Of a DNA stretch of 42,115 bases, positions 8,763 to 26,823 are shown one piece after another. Where the stretch lies: assembly GCA_001788415.1 (NCBI GenBank), contig MGBV01000262.1, positions 1-42,115 on the forward strand, in the 5' to 3' direction. This DNA is from Candidatus Rokubacteria bacterium GWC2_70_16. GTDB taxonomy: Bacteria > Methylomirabilota > Methylomirabilia > Rokubacteriales > CSP1-6. Under the pieces are notes generated by a model. It did not search any database and had not been told where the DNA came from. It was given only the letters and a program-made list of their open reading frames with translations. Both the position numbers and the translations under genes were made by a program. Position 1 is the first letter of the stretch, and every line of letters starts with the position of its first letter.

Positions 8763-9709
8763 TGAAAATCGTCCCGCTGGCGGCCGAGTCGCTGGGCGTG
8801 CGCTCCGTGGCGACCTACGTCGAGTGCGGGGCGACCCGGCTCGTCATCGACCCGGGCGCCTCGCTGGCCCCGAGCCGCTTCAACCTCCCCCCGGCCGACG
8901 CCGAGTGGGAGGCGCTCAAGCGGGCCAACGACCGCATCTCCGGCTACGCGGCGCGCGCCGGGTGGGTGTTCGTCAGCCACTACCACGAGGACCACTTCCG
9001 CTACGATCCGGCGCTCTACCGGGACCGCGGCGTGTGGGCCAAGGATCCCGCGCGGATGATCACCCCGAGCCAGGAGGGGCGGGCGCGGGAGCTGTGGAAG
9101 GCGCTGGAAGGGCAGTGCCGGCTTGACGCCGCCGAGGGGCGGCGCTACGAGACGGCGGATTGCGTGCTTCACGCCTCGCCTCCGCTGGCCCACGGCGTCG
9201 AGGGCAGCGGCCTCGGCTACGTGGTGGCGCTGACCGTGACGGACCGCCGCGAGGGCTTCCGCTTCGTCCACGCCTCGGACGTGCAGGGGCCGCTCTCCGC
9301 CGTGGCCGCGGCGTACCTGACGCGCGAGCGCCCGAGCCTGCTGTACCTCTCGGGTCCGCCGGCCTACCTGGAAGCGCGCCTCGGGCGCGCGCTCATCGAG
9401 CAGGGGGTGGAGCATCTGCTGCGAGTGATGGATCGCACGGGGTGCCGCGTGATCATGGACCATTACGCCCTGCGGGACGACGGGTACCCCGAGCGGTTCA
9501 GGCGGCTCTGGGAGACGGGCCGGGTCGTGACGGCGGCGGGCTTTCTCGGGCTCGAGGACCAGCCGCTGGAGGCCCGGCGGCGGCGCCTCTGGGAGATCAC
9601 GCGGAAGCCCGCCGGACGCATGCAGCCGCGATTGAAGAGCGACAGGGCGTCGGGTAAGATGGCGGCGCCTCACCCATCCCGGCGCACGAAAGGGGGACGA
9701 TCCGGATGA
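8762..9709 (+). CDS. MBL-fold metallohydrolase-like protein, UPF0282-type
   Basis: [21 protein letters not shown]...VIDPG...VFVSHYHEDHFR (HxHxDH-like) resembles UPF0282; ATG at 8762, start trimmed from the track ORF. Confidence 0.8.
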   Translation: MKIVPLAAESLGVRSVATYVECGATRLVIDPGASLAPSRFNLPPADAEWEALKRANDRISGYAARAGWVFVSHYHEDHFRYDPALYRDRGVWAKDPARMITPSQEGRARELWKALEGQCRLDAAEGRRYETADCVLHASPPLAHGVEGSGLGYVVALTVTDRREGFRFVHASDVQGPLSAVAAAYLTRERPSLLYLSGPPAYLEARLGRALIEQGVEHLLRVMDRTGCRVIMDHYALRDDGYPERFRRLWETGRVVTAAGFLGLEDQPLEARRRRLWEITRKPAGRMQPRLKSDRASGKMAAPHPSRRTKGGRSG

Positions 9710-10173
9710 GCGACGCCAAGACGCTCGGCATCGGAGATGCGGCTCCCGACTTCACGCTGAAAGGCATCGGCCTCAAGGAAGTGAGCCTCAGAGACTTCCG
9801 CGGCAAGACCGTCGTCGTGCTCTTCTATCCGCTGGACTGGACGCCCGGCTGATCTACCTGCATGCCCGCCTTCGACAAGCGTGTGAAGGACTTCGAGGCG
9901 GCCAATACCCAGGTGCTGGGTATCAGCACGGACAGCCCCTTCAGCCACGAGAACTGGGCGAAGTCGGTCGGCATCTCGAACTACCCGCTGCTCGCGGACG
10001 TGCACCGGAGCGCGGCGAAGGACTGGGGCGTGTACTGGCCCGACTGGAACGCCAACGTGCGCGCGACCTTCATCGTGGACGGCGACGGCACGGTGCGCTT
10101 CATCGAGCGTTACGCCAAGGGCCAGCTCCCCGACCCGGACAAGATCCTGGCCGAGGTCAAGAAGCTCGGCTAG
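9706..10173 (+). CDS. Peroxiredoxin, candidate selenoprotein (in-frame TGA at 9850-9852 = Sec49 in TPG-U-STC)
   Basis: ATG 9706 gives MSDAKTLGIGDAAPDFTLKGIGLKEVSLRDFRGKTVVVLFYPLDWTPG-[TGA]-STCMPAFDKRVKDFEAAN...KKLG in one frame; TGA sits at the peroxidatic Cys position of the TPxC motif; hairpin follows at 9869-9889. Confidence 0.85.
9869..9889 (+). promoter_or_regulatory. Candidate bacterial SECIS hairpin downstream of UGA
   Basis: CCUUC (9869-9873) pairs with GAAGG (9885-9889); 11-nt apical loop GACAAGCGUGU begins with G and starts about 21 nt after the UGA. Confidence 0.55.
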
Positions 10174-10420
10174 CGCCGGGCCAATGAACTTCGCCATGGC
10201 TCGCTCACGCTCGCCGGATTCCCATGTCCGCTCGCCTCACCTACGGCTGCGGCTCGCCCGGCCGGGTTCTCGGTCGGCGCGGGCGCTCAACGTACACCCA
10301 CGTACGCCTCGCGCCCGCGCCGGCTCGCTCCGCTCGCCCGCATGCCCCTTGTCGCTCGCCTCGCCTGCGGCTCCGGCTCGCCCGGCGGGGCCTCGTCTGG
10401 CTCGTTCCTTGGCCCGGCGC
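10173..10420. repeat. Copy 1 of a ~245-bp structured interspersed element (12-bp TIRs, two internal direct repeats, central hairpin)
   Basis: GCGCCGGGCCAA (10173-10184) and TTGGCCCGGCGC (10409-10420) are perfect reverse complements; similar along its length to 26503-26744. Confidence 0.85.
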
Positions 10421-10430
10421 GTGTGACCCG

Positions 10431-10571
10431 GGCCGGGGCGGGGGCCCTCCCCGCGGAACCGTGGCTTCTGCGCGATGCCGGAGCCGAGGCGCTCGGTCTC
10501 GTGGCTCCCCAGGAGGCATCGCCACGGGAGGCGACTCAGCGTGTTCCGCGGGGAGGGCCCCCGCCCCGGCC
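10431..10571. repeat. 141-bp foldback element with 29-bp perfect inverted-repeat arms
   Basis: GGCCGGGGCGGGGGCCCTCCCCGCGGAAC (10431-10459) is the exact reverse complement of 10543-10571; further pairing inside the 83-bp centre. Confidence 0.85.
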
Positions 10572-10583
10572 GGCCCTGCGGGT

Positions 10584-10612
10584 TTGACGCCTGCGGCACG
10601 GCTGCATATGAT
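10584..10612 (+). promoter_or_regulatory. Sigma70-like promoter for the SRPBCC gene
   Basis: TTGACG, 17-bp spacer, TATGAT, 12 nt before ATG 10625. Confidence 0.6.
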
Positions 10613-10624
10613 AGCGCCGCGCGC

Positions 10625-11125
10625 ATGGCCGACCACGTGCTCGAGTCCCGCGTCTGGCTGCCCTGTCCCCGCCCGCAGGTCTTCGAGTTCTTCGCGGACC
10701 CGCGCCACCTGGCGCTCGTCCAGCCGCCCTCGGCGCAGCTCGCCTGGCTGGCCCCGCCTGCGGCGCGGCTCGAGGCGGGGGCGGTGCTCGATTTCGCGGT
10801 GCGCGTCCTGGGCCTCCCCGTTCGCTGGCGCGTCATGATCCGGGAATTCGACCCGCCGTACCGCTTCGTGGACGCGCAGCTCCGCGGCCCCTTCGCGCGC
10901 TGGGAGCACCGGCACCGCTTCCTCGAGGGTCCCGAGCGGGAGGGGGGCACAGGTCCTGCCGGCACGTGGGTGGAGGATCGCGTGACCTATCGACTGCCGG
11001 CGGGCCCGCTGGGTGTCGTCGCTCATGCGCTCTTCGCTCGACGGCGGATCGTGCGACTCTTCGCCCACCGGCAGTCGCGGCTGCGCGAGCTGCTCTCCTC
11101 GCCCTTGACTAGCGGGAGCGCGTGA
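10625..11125 (+). CDS. SRPBCC family protein
   Basis: MADHVLESRVWLPCPRPQVFEFFADPRHLALVQPP...; typical SRPBCC/CoxG-like N-terminus; start trimmed to ATG 10625. Confidence 0.8.
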   Translation: MADHVLESRVWLPCPRPQVFEFFADPRHLALVQPPSAQLAWLAPPAARLEAGAVLDFAVRVLGLPVRWRVMIREFDPPYRFVDAQLRGPFARWEHRHRFLEGPEREGGTGPAGTWVEDRVTYRLPAGPLGVVAHALFARRRIVRLFAHRQSRLRELLSSPLTSGSA

Positions 11126-24196: not shown

Positions 24197-26503
24197 ATGG
24201 ACCGCCCCCTGATGTCCGAGGACAGGCCGGCCAAGACCGGCCGCTGGAGCGAGGCCGCCCTCCGGGTGCTGCGCGAGCGCTACCTCTCCCGCGAGAAGGG
24301 CGAGGTCGTGGAGACGCCGGAGGAGATGTGCTGGCGGGTCGCCCACGCCATCGCCGCCGCCGAGGAGCGCTTCGGCCGGAGCCCTGCGGCGATCCGCGAG
24401 GTGGCCGCGGCCTTCTACGACGTGATGGTGGAAGGCCACTTCCTGCCCAACTCCCCGACGCTGATGAACGCGGGCAAGGACAACCAGCTCCAGTACTCCG
24501 CCTGCTACGTGCTGCCCGTGGGCGACTCCATGGAGGAGATCTTCGAGTCCGTGAAGGCCGCTGCCATCATCCACCAATCCGGCGGGGGCACGGGCTTCGC
24601 CTTCTCGCGCCTCAGGCCGAAGAACGACTTCGTGCGCTCCACGGGCGGACGGGCCTCGGGACCCGTGTCCTTCCTGCGCGTGTTCAACAGCGCCACCGAT
24701 GCGGTGAAGCAGGGGGGGATGCGTCGCGGGGCGAACATGGGCATCCTGCGCGTGGACCACCCCGACATCCTGGAGTTCGTCGAGTGCAAGCTCGACGGGG
24801 GCATCACCAACTTCAACATCTCGGTGGCGGCCACCGATGCCTTCATGGACGCGCTGGCGCGCGGCGGGGACTACGAGCTGGTCAACCCGCGCACGGGCTT
24901 GCCGACGGGGCGGCTGTCGGCGCGCGAGGCCTTCGATCGCATCGTGCGGGCCGCGTGGCGCTCGGGCGACCCGGGCATGATCTTCCTCGACCGCATCAAC
25001 GCCAGCGCGGCCAACCCCACGCCGGAGCTGGGCCTCATCGAGGCGACGAATCCATGCGGCGAGCAAGCTCTCGGGCCCAACGACGCCTGCAACCTCGGCT
25101 CCGTGAACGTCTCGCGGCTGGTCCGCGAGACGGCGCCGGAGGGGTGGAGCATCGACTGGGAGGAGCTGGAGCGCGTGGTGCGCCTGGCCGTGCGCTTCCT
25201 CGACGACGTGATCGAGGTGAACCCCTACCCGCTGCCGCAGATCGACGCCATGGTGAAGGCCAACCGGCGCATCGGGCTGGGGATCATGGGCTGGGCCGAC
25301 CTGCTGTTCACGCTCGGCATCCCCTACGACAGCCAGGAGGCGCTGGACCTCGCCGAGCGGCTCATGGCCTTCGTGAACGACAGGGGGCACGATCAGTCGG
25401 CGCGGTTGGCCGAGGAGCGCGGCCCCTTCCCCAACTGGAGCCACTCCATCTATCGCGCCGGTCGTCCGCTGCGCAACGCCACGGTGACGGCCATCGCCCC
25501 CACAGGCACGATCTCCATGATCGCCGGCTGCTCCTCCGGCATCGAGCCGGTGTTCGCGCTGGCCTTCGAGCACCGCGTGAAGGGCGCCGACGGCGATCGG
25601 GTCCTGCCCTTCGTGAGCGAGACCTTCGGGCGCCTGGCGCGGGCGCGGGGATTCCACTCCGAGGCGCTCATGGCCGAGGTGGCGCGCCGCGGCTCCATCC
25701 AGGGCCTCCCGGGAGTGGACGAGGCGACGCGGGGCGTCTTCAAGACCGCCCACGAGATCGACGCCCGCTGGCACGTGCGCCACCAGGCCGCCTTCCAGCG
25801 TCACACCGACAACGGCGTGTCCAAGACGATCAACCTGCCCCAGGAGGCGACGGAGGGCGACGTGGCGCAGGCCTATCTCCTGGCCCGGGAGGAGGGCTGC
25901 CTTGGCATCACGGTGTTCCGCGACGGCTGCAAGGGGACGCAGGTGCTCAACGTCGGGGTGGGCCCGGGCCGGGGCGGCGAGACGGACCCTTCGGTGCTCG
26001 GCGAGCGCGTGGTCAAGCCGCGCCCCCACAGCCTGGCCGGACACACGTACCGGATGGAGACGCCCATCGGCACCGCCTTCGTCACGGTGAACGACACGGA
26101 GAGCGGCGAGCCCTTCGAGGTCTTCGTCCAGGTCGGGAAGGCGGGCTCCGACACCATGGCGGTGGCCGAGGCGCTGGGACGGCTGGTCTCGCTCGTCCTG
26201 CGGCTGCCCTCTCCGCTCTCGGCGCAGCGCCGGCTGGAGGAGGTCATCAGCCAGCTCTCGCGGATCGGCGGCGGCCAGCCCACGGGCTTCGGGGCCTCCA
26301 AGGTGCTGTCGCTGCCGGACGCGCTCGCGCGCGTCCTGGGCGAGCACATTGGCTACGGCGCCCGTCACGGGAGCGGCGCGGCGCGCGCCGGACAGCCCCC
26401 GCTGCGCCAGGTCGGCGACCTCTGCCGGGAATGCGGCCAGGCCACGGTCATCTACGAAGAAGGCTGCAGGAAGTGTCTGTCCTGCGGCTTCAACGAATGC
26501 TAG
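24197..26503 (+). CDS. nrdJ: Adenosylcobalamin-dependent (class II) ribonucleoside-diphosphate reductase
   Basis: LPNSPTLMNAGKDNQLQYSACYVLPVGDSMEEIF; NPCGEQ; APTGTISMIAGCSSGIEPVFAL; C-terminal zinc-ribbon CRECGQATVIYEEGCRKCLSCGFNEC. Confidence 0.95.
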   Translation: MDRPLMSEDRPAKTGRWSEAALRVLRERYLSREKGEVVETPEEMCWRVAHAIAAAEERFGRSPAAIREVAAAFYDVMVEGHFLPNSPTLMNAGKDNQLQYSACYVLPVGDSMEEIFESVKAAAIIHQSGGGTGFAFSRLRPKNDFVRSTGGRASGPVSFLRVFNSATDAVKQGGMRRGANMGILRVDHPDILEFVECKLDGGITNFNISVAATDAFMDALARGGDYELVNPRTGLPTGRLSAREAFDRIVRAAWRSGDPGMIFLDRINASAANPTPELGLIEATNPCGEQALGPNDACNLGSVNVSRLVRETAPEGWSIDWEELERVVRLAVRFLDDVIEVNPYPLPQIDAMVKANRRIGLGIMGWADLLFTLGIPYDSQEALDLAERLMAFVNDRGHDQSARLAEERGPFPNWSHSIYRAGRPLRNATVTAIAPTGTISMIAGCSSGIEPVFALAFEHRVKGADGDRVLPFVSETFGRLARARGFHSEALMAEVARRGSIQGLPGVDEATRGVFKTAHEIDARWHVRHQAAFQRHTDNGVSKTINLPQEATEGDVAQAYLLAREEGCLGITVFRDGCKGTQVLNVGVGPGRGGETDPSVLGERVVKPRPHSLAGHTYRMETPIGTAFVTVNDTESGEPFEVFVQVGKAGSDTMAVAEALGRLVSLVLRLPSPLSAQRRLEEVISQLSRIGGGQPTGFGASKVLSLPDALARVLGEHIGYGARHGSGAARAGQPPLRQVGDLCRECGQATVIYEEGCRKCLSCGFNEC

Positions 26504-26744
26504 TGCCGGGCCGATTGACTTCGCCATGGCTCGCTCACGCTCGCCTGATCTCCATATCCGCCCGCCTCGCCTGGGGCTGCGGCTCGCCGAACCACGTTCT
26601 CGGTCGGCGTGGGCGCTCAACGTACACCCACGTACGCCTCGCGCCCGCCGCTTCGCTCACCTCCCGGTTTCGCTCGCCTCGCCTTCGGCTGCGGCTCGCA
26701 CCCCAATCCTCGGGCCTCGTCTGGCTCGTCACTTGGCCCGGCAC
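26503..26744. repeat. Copy 2 of the ~245-bp structured interspersed element
   Basis: GTGCCGGGCC (26503-26512) and GGCCCGGCAC (26735-26744) are perfect reverse complements; shares the central 40-nt hairpin with copy 1 at 39/40 positions. Confidence 0.85.
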
Positions 26745-26823
26745 GGCGCGGTCACTGGCATGGGATCGGCGAAACTCGCCGGAGCCGGACTAGTGCGCCG
26801 CGGGGTGCCGGCGGAGGTGAGGC

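Follow-up and report, generated by a model that had tools for sequence, protein, structure and literature searches.

Palindromic repeats of Rokubacteria with co-varying arms, a centre found in both orientations and a probable transposon origin

The hairpin locus

The window analysed here is the whole 42,115-nucleotide stretch of contig MGBV01000262.1 from Candidatus Rokubacteria bacterium GWC2_70_16. Within it, the spacer between a peroxiredoxin gene and a gene for a polyketide cyclase/SRPBCC-like protein is occupied by two adjoining non-coding elements. The features of the locus are as follows.

9706-10173, + strand: upstream gene, peroxiredoxin (AhpC/TSA), with an in-frame TGA at 9850-9852, probably selenocysteine
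10173-10420, + strand: adjacent element from a second family, with end repeats 94% complementary and ends related to TGCCGGGCCAA / TTGGCCCGGCA in CTAG sites
10431-10459, + strand: left arm of the palindrome, 29 bp, identical in the ortholog of sister species G002
10460-10542, + strand: 83-bp centre in the 'plus' (CGTGGCTTCTGCG) orientation, as in G002; the segment is inverted at other orthologous loci
10460-10472, + strand: conserved core segment 1, CGTGGCTTCTGCG, from copy comparison
10497-10505, + strand: conserved core segment 2, TCTCGTGGC, from copy comparison
10531-10542, + strand: conserved core segment 3, GCGACTCAGCG and an unpaired T, from copy comparison
10543-10571, + strand: right arm, exact reverse complement of the left, one difference in the G002 ortholog
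10584-10612, + strand: promoter-like hexamers TTGACG-17-TATGAT shortly after the hairpin, by consensus match only
10625-11125, + strand: downstream gene, polyketide cyclase/SRPBCC-like protein

An inverted-repeat search recovered exactly the 141-bp foldback that a first-pass annotation had described, with two 29-nt arms that are 100% complementary and 83 nt between them. This arm pair is the longest inverted repeat in the window with a span of at most 200 bp and is far beyond chance, the longest arm in 60 Markov-1 shuffles of the whole window being 15 bp versus 29 bp in the real sequence. The RNA fold of positions 10425-10580 has a free energy of -123.8 kcal/mol (z = -7), and z is about -7 on either strand. 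The additional pairings proposed for the centre (GATGCC with GGCATC, and GGAGCC with GGCTCC) are indeed part of the fold predicted here, but only this copy has GGCATC, and the helix is not kept in others. We looked for a run of T 3' of the stem and found none, so the hairpin in the window is not a canonical intrinsic terminator.

The reading of the spacer as a stack of two elements holds, as the neighbouring 245-bp element belongs to a different family and starts at the peroxiredoxin stop codon TAG (10171-10173). That repeat (10173-10420 and 26500-26745 in the window) represents a second MITE-like family, which occurs at about 35 places in the genome, directly behind stop codons. The suggestion that the hairpin is a recent insertion was contradicted by the sister species G002, in which the same locus is occupied and the flanks are about 89-93% identical; the hairpin is therefore not recent and has been inherited vertically. 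Orthologs in other assemblies likewise refute an assembly artefact as the source of its presence. Both elements are missing from this locus in the sister genome G001 (L214, C134), which keeps about 15 bp of the left end of the 245-bp element. This remnant looks like a deletion of both elements and gives no polarity for insertion. In orthologs from other genera (L215, L217) the same peroxiredoxin gene is followed by different GC-rich hairpins.

The in-frame TGA of the peroxiredoxin gene lies in the context TPG-U-STC and is conserved in orthologs of several genera, and the genome contains a tRNA-Sec scoring above the Rfam cut-off. The protein is therefore probably a selenoprotein, whose gene ordinary annotation would split at the TGA.

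Copies of the palindrome in Rokubacteria

A search for other copies, as the first-pass annotation had recommended, returned about 20 in the genome of origin, many of them 75-88% identical across the whole 141 bp. We then used a covariance model on 57 genomes from 24 genera of the Rokubacteria taxonomic family, and found the palindrome in 25 of these genomes and 13 of these genera, some genomes carrying at least 20 copies. Of the low-scoring hits in distant genera, at about 55-79 bits, five were read by eye. In a sample of the phylum, no match at E <= 1e-7 was obtained outside this taxonomic family. Rfam scans returned no family above the gathering threshold, and the microRNA matches to the long stems are due to chance. 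This palindromic repeat family is previously uncatalogued; we found no earlier description in the open-access literature, which does not prove absence.

All genomes used are short-read-type draft MAGs. Contigs end inside several copies (L014, L015, L017, L022), and one further copy (L208) is bridged by N. The contigs C200 and C236 each start within a copy (L014/L087 and L015/L088) and share the same variable centre, so the assembly has probably broken a single element in two.

Covariation of the arms

In 39 aligned copies, 96.5% of the stem cells are standard pairs, two-sided changes occur in 27 of 36 arm pairs, and the arm covariation score is 0.344, versus 0.100 for shuffled alignments and at most 0.074 with slid partners. 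When the inner 25 pairs were scored in 98 copies from 11 genomes, 2341 of 2424 cells were Watson-Crick and the others comprised 48 G-U, 11 A-C and 24 further mispairs; these covariation counts take related copies as separate. The 98 copies contain 78 distinct left arms, and in 41 of them the stem is perfect over all 25 pairs. Distinct mispair events, counted by genus and position on the core-sense strand, number 26 for G-U versus 11 for A-C (p = 0.02, the events being not fully independent). This excess of G-U suggests that pairing at the RNA level is important on that strand. The perfect stem in the window had been attributed to active maintenance as an alternative to recent insertion, and this is borne out both by the covariation of the arms in about 100 copies and by the centres that flip in place at other loci, described below.

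Conservation of the centre

The centre consists of three conserved segments, CGTGGCTTCTGCG, TCTCGTGGC and GCGACTCAGCG, separated by variable sequence. In six ortholog pairs within the genus, changes are found at 11 of 238 positions that are conserved in other genera versus 30 of 252 elsewhere (odds ratio 0.36, p = 0.005); the corresponding test on all copies gives p = 1e-7 and is partly circular. These comparisons indicate that the core is kept by selection after insertion. Such conservation makes a further role plausible, most likely that of a transcript-end hairpin.

Several possible identities of the centre were considered and rejected. No single fold accounts for all of it, as RNAalifold and single-sequence folds disagree and only a CGT/GCG and a 3-bp helix recur. 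One reading frame is open in most copies from the same genus (WLLRDAGAEDLDLVAP), but it contains a stop in L046 and its variation is not codon-like. No match in motif was found to the ribozymes compared.

Inversion of the centre at orthologous loci

Eight orthologous pairs were available for comparison of the orientation of the centre, a feature that is error-prone for assemblers between perfect arms, all genomes here being drafts. Orientation is kept in five of them (L075/L105, L076/L103, L079/L106, L142/L176, and L092/L186, in which L092 is truncated), and the centre is flipped in two clean pairs and one truncated pair. In the clean pairs, L089/L187 and L085/L108, the flanks are collinear and the centres opposite, matching after inversion. 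L090/L100 is inverted likewise, with less certainty as L090 is truncated by a contig end. Comparison of the inverted centres of L089 and L187 shows about five differences, and at this locus a two-sided change has converted one arm pair from T-A to G-C. The segment is thus found in both orientations between inverted repeats, the arrangement expected of an inverton, in a comparison between species.

Template switching between inverted repeats is documented both to homogenise the arms and to invert the spacers (PMC8604942, PMC8794818). For this reason we attribute the homogenisation of the arms and the flipping of the centre to template switching, which we regard as their likely agent.

Probable transposon origin

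Of 200 flanks, 34 contain CTAGTGTCCTGTCTCAGA as a terminal repeat (at least 12 of 18 positions matching), where 1.0 was expected. These repeats cluster 39-43 nt outside the arms and in many copies resemble CTAG-TGTCCTGTCTCAGA. One copy, L077, carries the repeat with 18 of 18 matches at both ends, with CTAG adjoining both, and CTAG also adjoins many single ends of other copies. With its ends the element measures about 235 bp and has no coding capacity, the reading frame in the centre being broken in some copies such as L046. A search for target-site duplications, also recommended earlier, thus succeeded with CTAG at copies with intact ends and failed at the window copy, where neither a terminal repeat nor a target duplication is recognisable. 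The window copy has lost the MITE terminal ends, and it is therefore placed in the family by its homologous hairpin and core.

A 1.16-kb insertion sequence in genome G020 (L206) is bounded by the same terminal sequence next to CTAG, and its protein contains DDE_3 and helix-turn-helix domains, which identifies it as IS630 type. IS630 inserts preferentially at the TA in CTAG, according to the title of the Tenzen and Ohtsubo (1991) paper that PMC2170065 cites. At the family level we find shared terminal inverted repeats, a CTAG target and a short non-coding multicopy form, as in IS630-type MITEs. Since the terminal repeats lie at a fixed distance, the targets are CTAG and the ends are IS630-like, an IS630-type MITE offers the best interpretation of the family, whose MITE nature we consider highly probable. 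The palindrome family was probably spread by a transposon. Transposition by an IS630 transposase would be consistent with one locus at which an element lies directly behind a stop codon in G071 and G074 and is absent in G004, a candidate empty site. For L077 no direct empty site was found in the sister genomes, where the flanks were unmatched and only other copies matched. Clear terminal repeats are largely confined to genera g1 and g22; elsewhere it is the shared core alone that links the palindrome to the transposon. At L207 (1220-1320) we also observed a short element that has these terminal repeats and CTAG but no hairpin centre, possibly an internal-deletion derivative.

Location of copies at gene ends

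No copy lies inside a gene predicted by our simple codon-score script. After merging of pairs and orthologs, 70 independent loci were obtained, 30 between convergent, 38 between tandem and 2 between divergent genes; the corresponding numbers for element-free neighbouring gene pairs are 37, 294 and 35. TAG stops are enriched beside the copies (49 of 92, versus 199 of 561 genes overall). As CTAG reads TAG on both strands, much of this pattern is accounted for by insertion into CTAG at stop codons, and the CTAG preference alone could explain why copies lie 3' of genes. Relative to tandem genes, the core has the same orientation in 21 cases and the opposite orientation in 23, which means that any function is probably independent of orientation.

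Proposed origin and maintenance, and possible role

We propose that an IS630-type MITE would have spread the palindrome into CTAG sites, mostly at stop codons and between convergent genes, and that the window copy is a fixed, vertically inherited member of the family spread in this way. Template switching during replication would copy one arm from the other, by which the arms would stay perfect and change together, and the same event could invert the centre. Selection also keeps the core and seems to tolerate G-U more readily than A-C in the stem; from core selection and G-U tolerance taken together we infer that the hairpin is probably also read in RNA. To this explanation as a whole, MITE origin with template switching and a probable RNA role, we assign a probability of about 0.68. 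The most likely role, which we put forward tentatively and at somewhat below even odds on the basis of sequence comparison, would be that of an orientation-independent 3'-end hairpin, acting as a transcript end or terminator. This would fit the location, the stability of the stem, the tolerance of G-U and the retention at orthologous sites. Two observations speak against it, namely the lack of a T-run and the core conservation, which such a role leaves unexplained.

The explanation that survives best beside this one, although we consider it unlikely, is a structured non-coding RNA family or a binding site for an RNA-binding protein, in which compensatory mutations repair the stem and inversions are incidental. 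Conservation of the core over many genera, the 26 versus 11 mispair events on the core-sense strand and the position of the elements where transcription would reach them all agree with it. However, mispairs are rare, and the 41 of 98 stems perfect over 25 pairs exceed what a stem of that stability needs. The centre has no consistent fold and no Rfam match, and an RNA of fixed sense, made from the upstream promoter, is not kept when orientation to the upstream genes is random (21 versus 23) and the centre flips in place. A further reading, less probable again in our view, takes the conserved core as the mark of a hairpin RNA or a protein-bound 3'-end element of a new class in Rokubacteria, carried and spread by a MITE and having a function that tolerates or uses inversion of the centre in place.

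It is improbable that the inversions are assembly artefacts, arising where a short-read assembler, faced with perfect arms, placed the centre in either direction at random. The contigs ending inside L014, L015, L017 and L022 and the N-bridged L208 would be in keeping with such errors, but five of the eight ortholog pairs agree in orientation. In addition, mismatches limit the perfect arm in the flipped pairs to about 22-36 bp, which is shorter than a read and than the usual final k-mers, and the 141-bp element fits within ordinary read pairs. A pure terminator family, spread through its benefit to genes and with no transposon past, is very unlikely: copies do lie just behind stop codons and between convergent genes, and L215 and L217 do have other GC-rich hairpins behind the same peroxiredoxin gene, but it accounts neither for the terminal repeats and CTAG at fixed distance nor for the candidate empty site, would not need a conserved core, and lacks the T-run. 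Least likely of all is a programmed switch in which a site-specific recombinase, by acting on the arms, inverts the centre and so alters the expression of neighbouring genes, since despite inverted repeats around a segment found in both orientations at orthologous loci, the 78 distinct arms are unlike a conserved recombinase site, divergent (promoter) regions are avoided and the centre has no evident promoter.

Under the proposed MITE origin with template switching, about 100 hairpins form a natural series in which homogenisation of arms and inversion of centres can be read directly, some at fixed loci. Strong stem covariation is usually taken as proof of a selected RNA, and our results suggest that it may come at least partly from replication. 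The ratio of G-U to A-C mispairs, together with the record of inversions, offers a way to separate selection on RNA from replication. The family would also document how, in a phylum that has been little studied, a transposon-derived palindrome becomes a permanent feature of gene ends.

Comparison with known repeats

Examples of IS630-family MITEs include the ISY100-related elements of cyanobacteria and RUP of pneumococcus. The Rokubacteria repeat resembles this class in being a short non-coding repeat with IS630-type terminal inverted repeats and CTAG/TA insertion. It differs in its 30-bp near-perfect inner palindrome, in a core shared across genera and retained after loss of the ends, and in a centre that flips in place.

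Simultaneous two-sided stem changes and inverted loops are shared with template-switch hairpins (PMC8794818, PMC8604942), although those cases have small loops and lie in rRNA stems and short yeast repeats, whereas here an 83-bp centre and a whole repeat family are involved. Rickettsia palindromic elements (RPE) are likewise palindromic mobile repeats of about 150 bp; they lie in frame inside genes (PMC10969869), unlike the Rokubacteria repeat, with 0 copies inside predicted genes.

REP sequences are extragenic, lie 3' of genes and between convergent genes, show G-T pairing in their stems and occur as pairs in opposite orientation (PMC3733652). The Rokubacteria repeat is similar to REP/BIME and REPIN in its extragenic position 3' of genes and between convergent ones, in the G-T pairing of its stems and in the opposite-orientation pairs of genus g19, but is 141 bp long with stems of 25-30 bp, compared with a palindrome of 20-40 bp, and lacks the GTAG/CGTC tag. 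A link to RAYT and REP was considered and is unsupported: no hairpin was found within about 1.5 kb on each side of Y1_Tnp (RAYT) genes in the five loci examined, and three genomes that carry the hairpin had no Y1_Tnp match. Single Y1_Tnp (RAYT-like) genes do occur in some genomes (L225-L229), with no hairpin copy nearby. The palindromes of genus g19 (L166-L173, L115) form pairs of opposite orientation at a spacing of about 65-110 bp, and every copy has its own arms.
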